Below are positions 21,763 to 30,790 of a DNA stretch of 64,000 bases, in pieces. How positions within the stretch are numbered: the first letter of the stretch is position 1; each line of letters opens with the position of its first letter. A model generated the notes under the pieces. That model was not told where the DNA came from. It ran no database searches and saw only the letters and a program-made list of their open reading frames with translations. The DNA lies in the NCBI RefSeq assembly GCF_000243335.1, contig NZ_JH597773.1:1013989-1077988 (forward strand), written 5' to 3'. A program made the position numbers and the translations under genes. Source of the stretch: Leptonema illini DSM 21528. Its GTDB lineage: Bacteria; Spirochaetota; Leptospiria; Leptospirales; Leptonemataceae.

Positions 21763-22374
21763 CTACAGTCTCTGCAAATCCGCCAGAAACGACTTCAACG
21801 CTCGCCCGCGATGCGATCGCTCGTTTTTCTCCTCTGCCGAAAGAGAGGCGTAGCTACGACCGGTGATCAGATCTTCGAAAACCGGGTCATAGCCAAAGCC
21901 GCCGATGCCTTCGGGCTCGAGAAGGATGCGGCCTTCGGCAACGCCTTCGTAATAACGTATCTCGTCGTCCGGAGTCAGGAAAGCAAGCGTGCAGACGAAG
22001 CGTGCCTGCCTGAGATGCGAGGCGACTCCGTGCATTTTTTCAAGCAGCAGCCTCAGACGTCCGGTGTCGTCCAGGCCTTCGCCGCCATAGCGAGCGCTTT
22101 TCACGCCCGGTTCGCCGTTCAACGCATCGACGACGAGGCCGGAATCGTCGGCAAGAACGGGAATGCCCGCTGCCTCGCAGAAAGCACGCGCCTTCAGGGC
22201 GGCGTTTTCGGCGAAGGTGTTTCCCGTTTCCTCCACATCAAGGCTGAGGCCGATAGAGGCCGGCGTGCGAACGGGGATGGCAAATTCAGAAAGCATCTCT
22301 TCGAGCTCGCGTATCTTATGGGCGTTGCCGGTGGCGATGAGGATGCCGCTTCGTCTGAGCTCAGGGAGTTTCAT
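21763..22374 (-). CDS. rdgB: XTP/dITP pyrophosphatase RdgB (HAM1 family)
   Basis: A 203-residue nucleotide pool-cleaning enzyme that hydrolyses dITP and XTP to the monophosphates. Typical motifs are ILIATGNAHKIRELEEML at the start, TGNTFAENAALKARAF, PVLADDSGLVVDALNGEPGV, SARYGGEG, and the end GGFGYDPVFEDL ... NERSHRGRAL. Length is standard. The first 14 bases overlap the end of the STAS gene, and comF lies upstream, so comF-STAS-rdgB form one operon. Confidence 0.96.
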   Translation of the reverse strand: MKLPELRRSGILIATGNAHKIRELEEMLSEFAIPVRTPASIGLSLDVEETGNTFAENAALKARAFCEAAGIPVLADDSGLVVDALNGEPGVKSARYGGEGLDDTGRLRLLLEKMHGVASHLRQARFVCTLAFLTPDDEIRYYEGVAEGRILLEPEGIGGFGYDPVFEDLITGRSYASLSAEEKNERSHRGRALKSFLADLQRL

Positions 22375-22726
22375 GTCCCTGCCCTCTTACCTGATAAGAA
22401 TGCACGGCTGCGTCAAGGTTATCAAATACGAGAAAGACGCGGTCAAGCAGAGTGATCTGCAACACGCGAAGGACGTCGCCAGCCGTCGTAACGATTCTTA
22501 CGTCTCCTTCGTGACGGCGAATGCGTCGCTTTACAGAGATAAGGGCACCAAGCGCCGAAGAGCATATATGCTGAACGGCCGTCAGATCGAGAACGATGAG
22601 ACGACTGCCCTGCTCCAGAGTACGCTCAAGCTCCTTCTCAAATACGGGGCTATCCGTATGCTGGATGTTGCCCTTCACTGTGAGAATGTCGACGTCTCCC
22701 TTTCGGTTTCTTGAGATGGAGTCCAT
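22361..22726 (-). CDS. STAS-domain anti-sigma factor antagonist-like protein
   Basis: A 121-residue SpoIIAA/RsbV-like protein. The domain runs from DILTVKGNIQHTDSPVFEKEL to the phospho-acceptor loop DLTAVQHICSSALGALI, where the first Ser of SS is the probable phosphorylation site. Such proteins relieve anti-sigma factors when dephosphorylated. No anti-sigma kinase is encoded nearby. It overlaps comF by 52 bases and rdgB by 14, so it is translated within the operon. Confidence 0.88.
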   Translation of the reverse strand: MDSISRNRKGDVDILTVKGNIQHTDSPVFEKELERTLEQGSRLIVLDLTAVQHICSSALGALISVKRRIRRHEGDVRIVTTAGDVLRVLQITLLDRVFLVFDNLDAAVHSYQVRGQGHETP

Positions 22727-24100: not shown

Positions 24101-24952
24101 TTAAAGCTCTGACAGGATGCGCTTGCGCTGCTCTTCGTATTCCTTCTCTGTAATGACGCCTGACGCCTTCAGCTGCTCGAGTTTCTTCAAGCGCTCGGCG
24201 ACATCGCCCTTCATTTCACCCGGCTTCCCGTCTGGACTCTTTTCAGGCGAAGGCTTCTCGGCCGTGTCGGATCGCATAAACCGCGGATCGGGTTTCAATG
24301 CCAGCATCTCTTTTTCGGGAATGACGATATGCGTCAGGTGCGTGAAATCGCCCACTTTCTCAAACGAATAGAGCGTACTATCGAGAAGACGCGTATCTTC
24401 CGGAGCCTTCCGCAGATTGACCGGCTGCACATCGATCCACTTATCATCGTTGATGAAGTCGTCGCCCAGTAGCTCGGTGTGAATTTCGCCGAATACAAGA
24501 TGTACGTTCTCGCCATCGGTCCAGAAAAGCATCGTATTACGACGCATCTTCGAAAGCACCGTATTAAACGGATCGAACCTTGTTACAAGCAGATAGCGCA
24601 CATGCGGCTGCCCGGCCTCGATCACATCTTTCAATACCGGAGCGATCTCGGCCAGCTGCGCCTTGTAGAAAACCGGATACGTGCTGGCGCCGATCAGCCC
24701 TTTTTTCTCGACTCGCAAATACGTAAACAGGCTGAGCAGTCCTTCTGTCGAACCGGCCGGCAGCGGCTTCACCGGCTTCAACAGCGGACGAATCTCGTCG
24801 TCATCGGGATAGTCGGCCTCGGCAAGTGTGTAAACGTAGACCCGCTCAGATTTGTAGATTGCCTGCTTTTTGTAAAAGGCCGATGAGCACGAAGCAAGAA
24901 AAAACAATACGATGAGGACGATAAGGCTGCGGAGAGAAACGCGAAAATCCAT
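24101..24952 (-). CDS. lipoprotein with C-terminal SHOCT domain
   Basis: A 283-residue protein. The signal peptide ends in FFLASC (Cys near residue 22). The central part is unrecognised (YVYTLAEADYPDDDE; DKWIDVQPVNLRK). A Pro/Lys linker precedes the C-terminal SHOCT domain (ERLKKLEQLKASGVITEKEY), a short helical hairpin that often mediates oligomerisation. It is probably anchored to the inner or outer membrane and faces the periplasm. Upstream are the STAS gene and small companion, separated by about 50 bases. Confidence 0.8.
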   Translation of the reverse strand: MDFRVSLRSLIVLIVLFFLASCSSAFYKKQAIYKSERVYVYTLAEADYPDDDEIRPLLKPVKPLPAGSTEGLLSLFTYLRVEKKGLIGASTYPVFYKAQLAEIAPVLKDVIEAGQPHVRYLLVTRFDPFNTVLSKMRRNTMLFWTDGENVHLVFGEIHTELLGDDFINDDKWIDVQPVNLRKAPEDTRLLDSTLYSFEKVGDFTHLTHIVIPEKEMLALKPDPRFMRSDTAEKPSPEKSPDGKPGEMKGDVAERLKKLEQLKASGVITEKEYEEQRKRILSEL

Positions 24953-25005: not shown

Positions 25006-25362
25006 TCAAAAAAAAGGTCGAAGCTCCTCTTCTGAGAAGACTTTCTTGAGATCGGCGACCTCAATCACGCGGAAAATCTGAAAGAGACCGGCAAGCTTGA
25101 ATACGGAATGAAGCGACCGATTGAGGCCGACAAGGTTCAGACTGCCCAGCCCGTTACGAAGCAGCTCCGAAGATTTGATGAGGATTCCGATGCCGGAGCT
25201 GTCGACAAACTGAACTCGCGAGAAATCGAGATAGACATTTGTGCCAGAAACATCTTCGAGAGCCAGCAACTCGTCGTAAAAATCATGCGCATTCTCCATG
25301 CGGATGTCTTCAAGAGGACGGATGAGGATATCACGAGAGTTCCTGATCAAAACTTCTATCAT
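25006..25362 (-). CDS. STAS-domain anti-sigma factor antagonist
   Basis: A 118-residue SpoIIAA/RsbV-like protein, distinct from the one at 22361. It opens with VLIRNSRDILIRPLEDIRM and has the phospho-acceptor loop DFSRVQFVDSSGIGILIKSS. The last third (SVFKLAGLFQIFRVIEVADL) is typical of anti-sigma factor antagonists. The ATG overlaps the stop of the preceding small gene (ATGA), so the two are coupled. Confidence 0.92.
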   Translation of the reverse strand: MIEVLIRNSRDILIRPLEDIRMENAHDFYDELLALEDVSGTNVYLDFSRVQFVDSSGIGILIKSSELLRNGLGSLNLVGLNRSLHSVFKLAGLFQIFRVIEVADLKKVFSEEELRPFF

Positions 25363-25559
25363 TCGAGATCTTCTTTCTTCAAGCCCGGAATCACGTGCTC
25401 GAACCCCTCTTTATCTCTGTAGAGAACATGGATCGACTCACCCTCTACCTTCTGAATCAGAACGGGGCTGCCCTGCAGGACAAAAATCCCCTTGAAGAGA
25501 AAGGTCGGTTTTTTCAAAAATCGCTGTTCGCCGGGTTCAAATGACACGCTGGACCCCAT
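25359..25559 (-). CDS. small hypothetical protein coupled to a STAS gene
   Basis: A 66-residue protein, MGSSVSFEPGEQRFLKK..., beta-rich and without signal peptide or Cys. I know no family. I use ATG 25559; a TTG five codons earlier is possible. Its stop overlaps the STAS start, which suggests a shared role, perhaps as a partner of the STAS protein. That is inference from gene order only. Confidence 0.6.
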   Translation of the reverse strand: MGSSVSFEPGEQRFLKKPTFLFKGIFVLQGSPVLIQKVEGESIHVLYRDKEGFEHVIPGLKKEDLE

Positions 25560-25602
25560 TCTTCTCTGCTCCAATTGAAAACAAGGTTTTTTTGATACCC
25601 AA

Positions 25603-26385
25603 TCAGACCCTGCCCGCCTGCTCGGTGTAGAGTGTCTTTCCTTCCTGCTTCATGACCCTGTACAGATGCACCTGCCTCTGGTCGAGACGTGTGCCGACAT
25701 CATAAAGGGCTCCGTCAAACTGAGCGCCGTCCACCTGCGCCCCAGCCAGCTTTGCCCAGCGCAGATCGGCCTCGCGCAGGTCGGCATTCTTGAGATTACA
25801 GCTATTAAGGAAGGCGCCGCGTAACCGGGCGCCGCGCAGATTTGCGCCTTCAAGATTCGCATTCTGCAAGAAGGCATTCTGTAGATTGGCGCCCTCAAAA
25901 TCGACGCCTCGCAGATCCTCTCCTTCGAGGATGACCTGCGTCAGCTTCTCACCGCGCAGATGACCCTGCTCTTTCAGCTTCTGTAGAGCGACGGTACGCG
26001 ACACACGATCGTCGGCGCTGATGCCCGTTCCGTTACGAAAATCGGCGATGGCCTTTTGCATGGCCTCGACGGCCGATTCGGGATAATTCTTGCGCCGCTC
26101 GGGGAATTCAAACATACCCTCAACGTCGGCGGCGGTGATGCGCTCGACCTCTTCGACCGACCTTCCTCTGGCCCATTCGGTGGCCATGGCAAGGGCGGCC
26201 AGGCCGAAGCCACAGCCCGTCGTCGTATAGCTGGCGTCGACGACGCGATCGGAATCGATTTTCAGATAAAGCCTGTATCCGTCGCCGCAGCCTGTATTGC
26301 GATATGATGAGACGACGGTGGCATCGTCCATCTCACGATAGTTCAGACGGGTATCATTGATTTCTTTAAAGCGTTCGTAGTCCAT
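25603..26385 (-). CDS. IscU/NifU-like domain fused to pentapeptide repeats
   Basis: A 260-residue protein from ATG 26385 (AGAGAAGG upstream). Residues ~20-150 resemble the IscU/NifU scaffold: SYRNTGCGDGYRLYLKID and DASYTTTGCGFGLAALAMA carry the first two ligand cysteines, and RKNYPESAVEAMQKAIADF aligns where the third Cys normally sits, but has Tyr instead. Residues ~175-235 are pentapeptide repeats (LRGVDFEGANLQNAFLQNAN and LREADLRWAKL) that should form a right-handed beta helix. A fully functional Fe-S scaffold is therefore doubtful; it may bind metal differently. I do not know this fusion from characterised proteins. Confidence 0.8.
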   Translation of the reverse strand: MDYERFKEINDTRLNYREMDDATVVSSYRNTGCGDGYRLYLKIDSDRVVDASYTTTGCGFGLAALAMATEWARGRSVEEVERITAADVEGMFEFPERRKNYPESAVEAMQKAIADFRNGTGISADDRVSRTVALQKLKEQGHLRGEKLTQVILEGEDLRGVDFEGANLQNAFLQNANLEGANLRGARLRGAFLNSCNLKNADLREADLRWAKLAGAQVDGAQFDGALYDVGTRLDQRQVHLYRVMKQEGKTLYTEQAGRV

Positions 26386-26549
26386 GGCCTTCTCTTGAAG
26401 CGTCCCGGGCGGGATGCCGACGGCGTCCCGGAGGCTTGCGACTCCGAGCAACTTCAATTAAGTAAGGCCCGACACATGCGACGAGCGAAAAGGCGTAATA
26501 CGAGGCTCAAAACTCCTCTTGCCCGGAGCAGATTGAGCGCTTAAGCCTC

Positions 26550-28130
26550 TCACTTTTCTCGTCGAGAGGCACCGACGACCGGAGACGTATACGAATACAA
26601 TCCGTGCACCGTTCCCTGTGCCTGTGCCGATAGCGATCGCCTTTCAAAGCGCACCTTGCCCTGCGCCATCTGCTCATGCAGCTCGGGGATGCTTTTCACG
26701 CCCATATCCTGAAAGGATTGCTTCAGGCCCTGTACGAGATAAGGAACATACTGGAACATGGAGCCTTTATCGACGACGGCGCCCGTTACTCCCTGCGCTA
26801 CCTTGATATCAAGATCCTCAGAGAAATAACGCTTTGCGCCGCCTGCTTCCATCGCCTCAAGCGAGGCCATACCGCGATACCGCTTCAGTCGGACGCCGTT
26901 CTCGTAGAAATACTCGCCGGGCGCTTCAGACGTTCCGGCAAACATAGAGCCCATCATCGTCGTCGATGCTCCGATAGCAAGGGCGACGGCGATATCGCCG
27001 ATGTTCGAAATGCCGCCGTCGGCAATGACCGGAACGTTGTAGCGACGTGCGAATTTCGCCGTCTGATATACGGCCGTCGCCTGCGCACGGCCCACAGCCA
27101 TCGTATCCTGCGTGATACAGATCGAACCGGGTCCCATACCGATACGCAGCGCATCGGCGCCGGCTTTGATGAGATTGTAACACTGATCCATCGTCACGAC
27201 GTTGCCGGCGATGATCTGCACTTCGGGATAATGCTTCTTCATGTACTGAAGCAGCTCGATCTGATAATGAGAATTACCCTGAGCCGAATCCACGACAACG
27301 ACGTCCACACCGGCTTCGATTAACGCTTCCAGTCGATCACGGGCCTCAAGCTTCGTCGAGATCGCGGCGCCGACCATGAGCCGCTTCTGCGAATCCTTCG
27401 ACGCGTCGGGATATTCACGATGCTTCTTGATATCGGTACGACAGATAAGCGAAACAAGCTGGCCCTTCTCGTTCACGATGGGCAGCTTTCCTTTTTTAGA
27501 GCTTTTCAATATCTCGTTCGCTTCGGCAAGCGGGATGCCTTCGCGCACCGTAACAAGGTCCTTTGTCATCACCCGATCGAGCGTGAGAGTGCGGTCTTTC
27601 TCGAGGTCGACGTCGCGGTTCGTGACGATACCGATCAGTTTGCCGTTGCGCGTTCCGTCTTCGGTAATCGGAATGCCCGAGAATCCGAAGCGTGCCTTGA
27701 TCGTATAAACGTCTTCGATAGTATTTCGGGGCGAGAGCACGATCGGATCGGTGATAAAGCCGTTTTTAAAGCGCTTCACTTTCAAGATAAGATCACGCTG
27801 CTGTTCAATCGTGTTATTGTAGTGGATAATACCGATGCCGCCCGTCAGCGCCATGGCGATGGCCATACGGTCTTCGGTGACCGTATCCATGGGCGAAGAG
27901 ATCAGAGGCTTTTTAATGCGGAGGTCACGAGTAAGCTGCGTGTCCAGATCCACTTCAGATGGATGGAAATCGATAAAGCCGGGCAATACGATGAAATCTT
28001 TGTAGGTCAGACCGGTCTGGCCGGCGAACATCTCTTCGGCCGAGAAGCCGTCTCTCAGGTCTTCGGCGTTGATTTGAAAATCCGTATCGTCTGTGAGCTT
28101 GGTGTATTCCTGCGAGCCTGCACCGGGCAT
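26550..28130 (-). CDS. guaB: inosine-5'-monophosphate dehydrogenase, eukaryote-like
   Basis: A 526-residue enzyme that converts IMP to XMP in guanine nucleotide synthesis. The catalytic loop is [16 protein letters not shown], and the NAD/IMP region includes [18 protein letters not shown]. Two CBS domains ([20 protein letters not shown]) sit between. These wordings, with [11 protein letters not shown] and ASKDSQKR, closely match animal/fungal-type IMPDH rather than the shorter common bacterial form. I chose ATG 28130, preceded by GGAGG. Downstream (left) is intergenic; upstream is the CoA transferase gene. Confidence 0.97.
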
Positions 28131-28282
28131 ACTAGTCCTCCCACAGGAGCTCCCTGTGGAAGAGAGCCACTGTAGAAACAAGATTATCAAAATCCCTGTA
28201 CAGGCAAGTGATTTAAGAGCGGAGCAAGCCGGCGGCCGAACGGATTCCCTGACATATCAGGGCTACATCTCGCCGCAGGGTC

Positions 28283-29659: not shown

Positions 29660-30790
29660 ATGACGGCTGACACAGCATCACTGAAAACACTCGCAGAAGA
29701 ACGCTGGAATGTGCTTGTATCGAGGCGGAGCCATGTGCCCGATGCAAGCACTTCAGGCCTCGCCGTTCCACTTAATCCCGCCTTGCTCGAGCCGGGCTTC
29801 TTTTACGGTGTGAAGACGACGAAGATCTACTGCCGCCCGAGATGTCCGTCGAAGCTTGCCCGTCGCGAGAACGTCGTCTTCTTTGACACGATTGAAATGG
29901 CCAGGCGGGCCGGATTCAGGCCCTGCAAGCGTTGCCGTCCCGACGATGCGTCCTCCGGTACGAAGAACGACAACATCATCGCCTCACTCTGTCGCTACAT
30001 CGACGGCTGCGAACATATTCCGACGTTAAATGAGCTCTCTCAGAGATGCGCCATCAGCCCTTATCATCTTCACAGACTTTTCCGCGAGCGGACGGGCCTG
30101 ACGCCTCGTCAGTATGCGAACGGACGTCGTCGCGAACGCCTGCGATCCGAACTACCGAAAAGCCGTTCGGTCACCGATGCGCTTTATCAGAGCGGATATA
30201 ATGCCGGCAGTCGCTTCTATTCGGATTCCGATCGCACGACAGGCATGTTGCCGACAAAATACAGAAACGGCGGCGATGGTGTCGTTATTCGCTACGCGAC
30301 CGGCCAATGTTCTCTCGGCCGTATCCTGATCGCTGAAAGCGATCGCGGCATCTGCGCCGTTCTGTTTGCCGATCATGACGATATTCTGAGACGGGAACTG
30401 ACCGCCATGTTTCCAGCCGCCGGCATCACCGAAGATACAGAATCGTTATCCGATCGCCTGCGCGCCGTTACGTCGCATATCGAGCATCCCGGCCGCATCT
30501 TTTCGCTGCCGCTGGATCTGCAAGGAACGGTCTTTCAACGGAGGGTCTGGCAGGAATTGCAGACGCTCTCGCCCGGCACGACGATCAGCTATGCCGACCT
30601 CGCCCGCCGTATCGGATCGCCCGATGCCGTCCGCGCCGTCGCCGGAGCCTGCGCGGCGAACCGTCATGCCGTCGTTATCCCCTGCCATCGCGTATTGCGC
30701 TCGGACGGATCCATATCGGGATACCGATGGGGCGTAGAGCGAAAGAAGCTGCTGATAGAAAGGGAGAGGCAGAGCCGAATCGACGATTAA
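29660..30790 (+). CDS. ada: Ada: DNA repair methyltransferase and transcriptional regulator
   Basis: A 376-residue bifunctional protein. The N-terminal phosphotriester-repair domain has KTTKIYCRPRCPSK (acceptor Cys) and GFRPCKRCRPDD (zinc). An AraC-type helix-turn-helix follows (about 110-190: LSQRCAISPYHLHRLFRERT). The C-terminal O6-alkylguanine transferase has VVIPCHRVLRSDG (active Cys in PCHRV). All key residues are present. It probably controls its own transcription on methylation. Its 3' end overlaps the convergent helicase gene by 4 bases. Confidence 0.96.
   Translation: MTADTASLKTLAEERWNVLVSRRSHVPDASTSGLAVPLNPALLEPGFFYGVKTTKIYCRPRCPSKLARRENVVFFDTIEMARRAGFRPCKRCRPDDASSGTKNDNIIASLCRYIDGCEHIPTLNELSQRCAISPYHLHRLFRERTGLTPRQYANGRRRERLRSELPKSRSVTDALYQSGYNAGSRFYSDSDRTTGMLPTKYRNGGDGVVIRYATGQCSLGRILIAESDRGICAVLFADHDDILRRELTAMFPAAGITEDTESLSDRLRAVTSHIEHPGRIFSLPLDLQGTVFQRRVWQELQTLSPGTTISYADLARRIGSPDAVRAVAGACAANRHAVVIPCHRVLRSDGSISGYRWGVERKKLLIERERQSRIDD

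Follow-up and report, generated by a model that had tools for sequence, protein, structure and literature searches.

The gene at 25603-26385 of the 64,000 nucleotide stretch of Leptonema illini DSM 21528 DNA analysed here (the window; Table 1) encodes an IscU-like domain fused to pentapeptide repeats, with tyrosine in place of the third ligand cysteine. As judged by alignment and tree, the protein and its relatives are a single clade, separate from ordinary IscU/NifU proteins, and the fusion is co-inherited with a small SH3-like protein encoded next to it in most genomes that carry it. We tentatively read the fusion as an IscU-derived pseudo-scaffold without a persulfide acceptor which, together with its SH3-like partner, is predicted to be an accessory that handles metal, probably for Fe-S assembly; we put the chances of this reading slightly below even. 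Each of the folds involved is already known. What is new, as far as the open-access literature searched goes, is the lost-acceptor clade, its fusion and the co-inherited small partner, no description of which was found there.

Table 1. Positions in the window of the fusion gene, its domains and the neighbouring genes.
Feature	Position	Strand	Remarks
STAS-domain protein (anti-sigma-factor-antagonist type)	25006..25362	(-)	4-base overlap with SH3-like gene
SH3-like partner	25359..25559	(-)	66 aa from ATG at 25559; no Pfam family; conserved neighbour
Fusion gene	25603..26385	(-)	260 aa, ATG start, by translation
Pentapeptide-repeat domain (beta-helix)	25702..25959	(-)	residues 143-228
IscU-like NifU_N domain	26032..26385	(-)	residues about 1-118; Cys33, Asp35, Cys58, Asn100-Tyr101
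Other parts of the fusion protein			helical linker about 130-140; C-terminal cap after beta-helix
guaB (IMP dehydrogenase)	26550..28190	(-)	upstream of fusion, same strand

Pfam assigned the N-terminal half of the fusion to NifU_N (PF01592; 69 bits, cut-off 22, residues 20-118) and the C-terminal half to Pentapeptide (PF00805; 83.3 bits, cut-off 20.2, in three stretches), the repeat domain being short at about 85 residues. The motifs GCGDG and GCGFG supply Cys33 with Asp35 and Cys58, respectively, while KNYPES contains Lys99-Asn100-Tyr101. A longer version of the gene starting from TTG at 26457 was rejected because the relatives in a 17-row alignment begin at the Met of the ATG start or at most one residue off. 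The AlphaFold2 model, for which a 34-row alignment served as input, had a mean pLDDT of 92.5, and Foldseek matched its first half to IscU chains, with TM by target reaching 0.83, and its second half to pentapeptide proteins. None of the curated NCBIfam cut-offs for IscU, SufU or NifU was reached by the fusion, which scored 44.6 of 192.4 bits for TIGR01999, 46.2 of 273.3 for TIGR02000, 59.2 of 187.9 for TIGR03419 and 48.9 of 92.5 for the curated SufU model. Scores for the gyrase-protecting models were likewise below cut-off (MfpA 48.4 of 360 and Qnr 27.4 of 240 bits).

Across the third site, a profile of the N-terminal domain made from 17 rows aligned with solved IscU chains (4eb5_C and 7c8m_A) with no gap, placing gfPerrknYpes over GLPxxKMHCSNL. 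Asn100 thus occupies the site of the IscU ligand histidine and Tyr101 that of the third cysteine. In our alignment A3, tyrosine was found at this column in 34/34 rows, as were Cys33, Asp35 and Cys58 at theirs. This invariance led us to reject chance or an artefact of assembly, annotation or sequencing as the cause of Tyr101. A third cysteine elsewhere in the fusion was also rejected, there being no other conserved Cys column in A3 (next best 13/34). The alignment used for the tree contained 37 family rows, 36 of which cover the third site (L089 stops short); all 36 have Tyr, preceded by Asn in 35 (the exception, L034, has Tyr), whereas the ordinary rows have Cys there in 14 of 14 cases. Based on the Tyr in 36/36 rows and the invariant Cys33, Asp35 and Cys58, the sequences indicate that the Cys to Tyr change is old and fixed and marks a subfamily, not an oddity of a single genome. 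The role of the conserved Tyr and Asn may be structural only.

These results bear out the preliminary description in its architecture, that is an IscU-like domain fused to pentapeptide repeats with the third Cys replaced by Tyr, which holds by translation, Pfam, ungapped profile alignment and conservation. Its proposal that the protein is a repurposed rather than a normal scaffold is well supported by the clade-wide invariant Tyr, by curated scores that all stay under their cut-offs and by an ordinary SufU encoded elsewhere in the genome; the two-Cys form is not the one that characterises the curated IscU, SufU and NifU families. Metal binding by the two cysteines, also suggested there, is putative, and Asp35 is retained as well. 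Overall, the earlier interpretation is partly supported. It did not include the SH3-like neighbour, which is co-inherited with the fusion and is the most informative feature of all.

With the family profile, family rows scored 134.9-200.7 bits, the lowest value belonging to the truncated L089, and ordinary NifU_N rows 22.5-98.6 bits. In the tree, a branch with support of 100/99 separates the family from the other rows; support was 100/100 once three long rows and the columns of the trait had been taken out. This grouping is partly built in since rows were sorted by the same profile score, although branch support is not so affected. The truncated relative (L089, 6001-6285, from a MAG) terminates at a stop codon immediately ahead of the Tyr site and is possibly broken or misassembled. 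In two further loci (L120 and L121, from G402 and G401), weak second NifU_N matches of 29.6 and 27.9 bits were seen, which are possibly degenerate SufU-type genes.

At a match threshold of E <= 1e-50, the fusion was found in 34 of 392 Spirochaetota genomes, of which 21 belong to f1, the group that includes the window's genome, 7 to f2 and 6 to f3; one of the 34, G115, is cut by a contig end. These counts apply to the genomes searched, among which species of Leptospira proper may be missing, the genus of G004 being represented by one genome. Five of 294 planctomycete genomes also carry the fusion, a count that is not a rate because all five were already among the collected loci, and an Acidobacteria MAG (L080) provides one more fusion. 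Relatives with a single domain, and with Tyr at the same site, were seen in G004, G160, an FCPU426 MAG (L088) and G400 (L091).

The SH3-like partner is encoded by an unannotated gene 43 bases downstream of the fusion gene, for which the open reading frame listing gives a TTG start at 25574 instead of the ATG in Table 1. Members share the pattern TFLHxGIFV...DKEGxPH...EEL; Asp47 and Glu49 are invariant, with a His close by in most. In Pfam, the copy in the window had no match, and a scan of 23 members gave none that was consistent. NifZ, considered as an identity for the partner, was not among the 10 families listed, at E up to 10, for these 23 members, in a search in which filters drop most weak matches. 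The model (pLDDT 94) is an SH3-like barrel, and no fold match at Foldseek E <= 0.001 was obtained. Comparison with NusG/KOW barrels gave VIA Z up to 8.6, the barrel arrangement being a common one. A relation by sequence to solved structures was rejected, the best E of 0.035 not being meaningful. Small SH3-like proteins such as NdhS/Ssl0352 and the NusG KOW domain thus have the same barrel fold, but no sequence relation to the partner was found for them and so common a barrel tells little of function.

The partner is co-inherited with the fusion. It occurs in 35 of 392 Spirochaetota genomes, namely in 34/34 of those with the fusion and in one of the remaining 358, the 83% complete draft G202. 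As judged from the listed positions, the genes lie side by side in 26 of these genomes and apart or on separate contigs in the other eight. Within group f3 (13 genomes), six have both genes, one has the partner only and six have neither. Among the 294 planctomycete genomes the partner was present in six, comprising all five with the fusion and the draft G430. It was not found in the Acidobacteria MAG G397, which has the fusion, nor in G398 and G399, which have a single-domain or truncated relative. Since the genomes share ancestry, the association is stated as counts, without a P value. G400 carries the IscU-like domain as a separate gene (L091), and there a separate 155-residue pentapeptide gene is followed by the SH3-like gene with a 4-base overlap (counted by hand). 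Finding the same parts joined in one genome but encoded separately elsewhere is a classical hint of joint function, so that the split genes of G400 hint that these parts act together.

A link to Fe-S genes was seen in group g21, where G055, G115 and G202 have the run sufB-sufC-sufD-sufT-LEA-partner-inositol-phosphatase type (Pfam and NCBIfam scans covered the run in G055 and parts of it in G115 and G202, the rest being assigned by eye). A fourth genome, G193, has LEA-partner-phosphatase as far as a contig end. Limited to one genus, the suf link counts as one evolutionary event. Outside g21, the neighbours are guaB, a STAS protein and a lipoprotein or unrelated genes, and by eye no Fe-S genes were seen among the called frames beside the five planctomycete fusions. 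In the window's genome, SufB, SufD, SufS and a three-Cys SufU are grouped in a SUF operon, SufC being assigned by eye. This SufU, found when a normal IscU or SufU was sought, scores 154 bits against the curated model and is a separate gene beside sufS. At a distance of about 0.8 kb from sufB, the same genome has on the opposite strand a rhodanese-like gene whose product carries a short Cys motif at its N-terminus (L179, 2130-2675, (-); by eye).

Closer to the fusion, the STAS gene and guaB are neighbours in many loci and probably lie outside the core module. A second small STAS-domain-like gene (22361-22726, (-)) lies within 3 kb of the first, and both recur beside the cluster in relatives; the domain scan covered the first copy. 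A fast-evolving lipoprotein-like gene with a SHOCT C-terminus (24101-24952, (-)) lies close to the cluster in 31 of the 58 loci that were searched. For the gene at 29660-30790 (+), which from its motifs, read by eye, we take to be an Ada-type regulator/methyltransferase, no match was found in the 58 neighbour loci.

The fusion shares with IscU/ISCU2 the fold, the CGD and GC motifs and the helix past the third site, at about 23-31% identity in the Foldseek-matched region. It differs in having Asn-Tyr for His-Cys, [FY]P-x-RR for LPxxK and a C-terminal pentapeptide domain, and in scoring under every curated IscU/NifU model. In the excerpted text of PMC11021402, free ISCU2 holds Fe2+ through Cys69, Asp71, Cys95 and His137, and Cys138 is the persulfide acceptor. 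Relative to these resting iron ligands, the fusion family keeps three of four (Cys33, Asp35 and Cys58), with His changed to Asn. The SufU excerpt (PMC6006206) names Cys41, Asp43, Cys66 and Cys128 as zinc ligands and Cys41 as acceptor; equivalents of three of these four ligands exist in the fusion, and that of Cys128 is Tyr. SufU shares with the fusion the superfamily, the first two Cys and the Asp, but the gene beside sufS is the separate three-Cys SufU and not the fusion. The repeat region is likewise of the beta-helix type known from Alr5209, HetL, MfpA and Qnr, but it is short, lies behind an IscU-like domain and falls below all curated subfamily cut-offs.

From these comparisons, the metal side of IscU appears largely retained in the fusion family and the sulfur side deleted. 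The fusion may hold a single metal ion, Fe2+ or Zn2+, through Cys-Asp-Cys together with water, the Tyr/Asn pair or a residue of the partner. Since the ISCU2 acceptor given in the PMC11021402 excerpt is exactly the lost cysteine, the fusion should be unable to accept persulfide as IscU does and consequently would not build clusters by the ISC route. From the co-inheritance of the fusion and the SH3-like protein, we propose that the pentapeptide part may act as a docking rod, with the SH3-like protein as an obligate partner. The pair would then act as an accessory of SUF, for example as iron donor, desulfurase regulator or metal sensor, with the ordinary SufU of the genome presumably performing sulfur relay. 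Speaking against the accessory reading are the suf link being restricted to one genus, with guaB, STAS or unrelated neighbours elsewhere, and the genomes in which one gene occurs without the other (fusion only in G397, partner only in the drafts G202 and G430). Its most specific form, in which fusion and partner are a dedicated iron donor of SUF-type Fe-S assembly with the beta-helix and the SH3-like protein guiding the donor to its client, is in our view unlikely.

Other readings assign the same residues differently. A structural or regulatory protein without Fe-S chemistry, in which for instance the repeat face binds protein or nucleic acid and the head senses redox via Cys33/Cys58, has perhaps a modest chance of being correct. 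It would fit the non-Fe-S neighbours in most genomes, the SH3/KOW barrel of the partner, a general interaction module, and the gyrase binding of pentapeptide proteins such as MfpA/Qnr. However, Asp35 is as invariant as both cysteines, as a metal site would predict, the partner sits within the suf gene run in one genus and the repeat domain is short. Should the protein instead be a divergent but working cluster scaffold, the third cluster ligand would be supplied by Tyr101 or by the SH3-like partner. We regard this as improbable, even though Tyr101 is present in every row covering the site and the partner offers its invariant Asp47 and Glu49 and mostly a nearby His, because Tyr ligation of Fe-S clusters is rare and because the third Cys of ISCU2 is, in the excerpt of PMC11021402, needed for persulfidation. 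Similarly doubtful is a SufU-type sulfur transfer in which Cys33, the CGD cysteine, accepts persulfide and Tyr is a spectator. Here, the invariant first Cys and Asp of CGD and the use of the equivalent Cys41 as SufU acceptor in the excerpt of PMC6006206 are set against the missing Cys128 equivalent of the zinc site described there and a genome that already has a SufU adjoining its SufS.

In conclusion, if the pseudo-scaffold reading holds, the family would represent a natural split between metal holding and sulfur accepting, which IscU combines, and this split would be fixed across a clade rather than engineered by mutation. A further outcome of the analysis is a small, undescribed protein family that is co-inherited with the fusion and lies inside a suf run in one genus. 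A specific iron donor for SUF is posed as a question in the excerpted part of the review PMC6006206, and fusion and partner may provide a concrete candidate for it.
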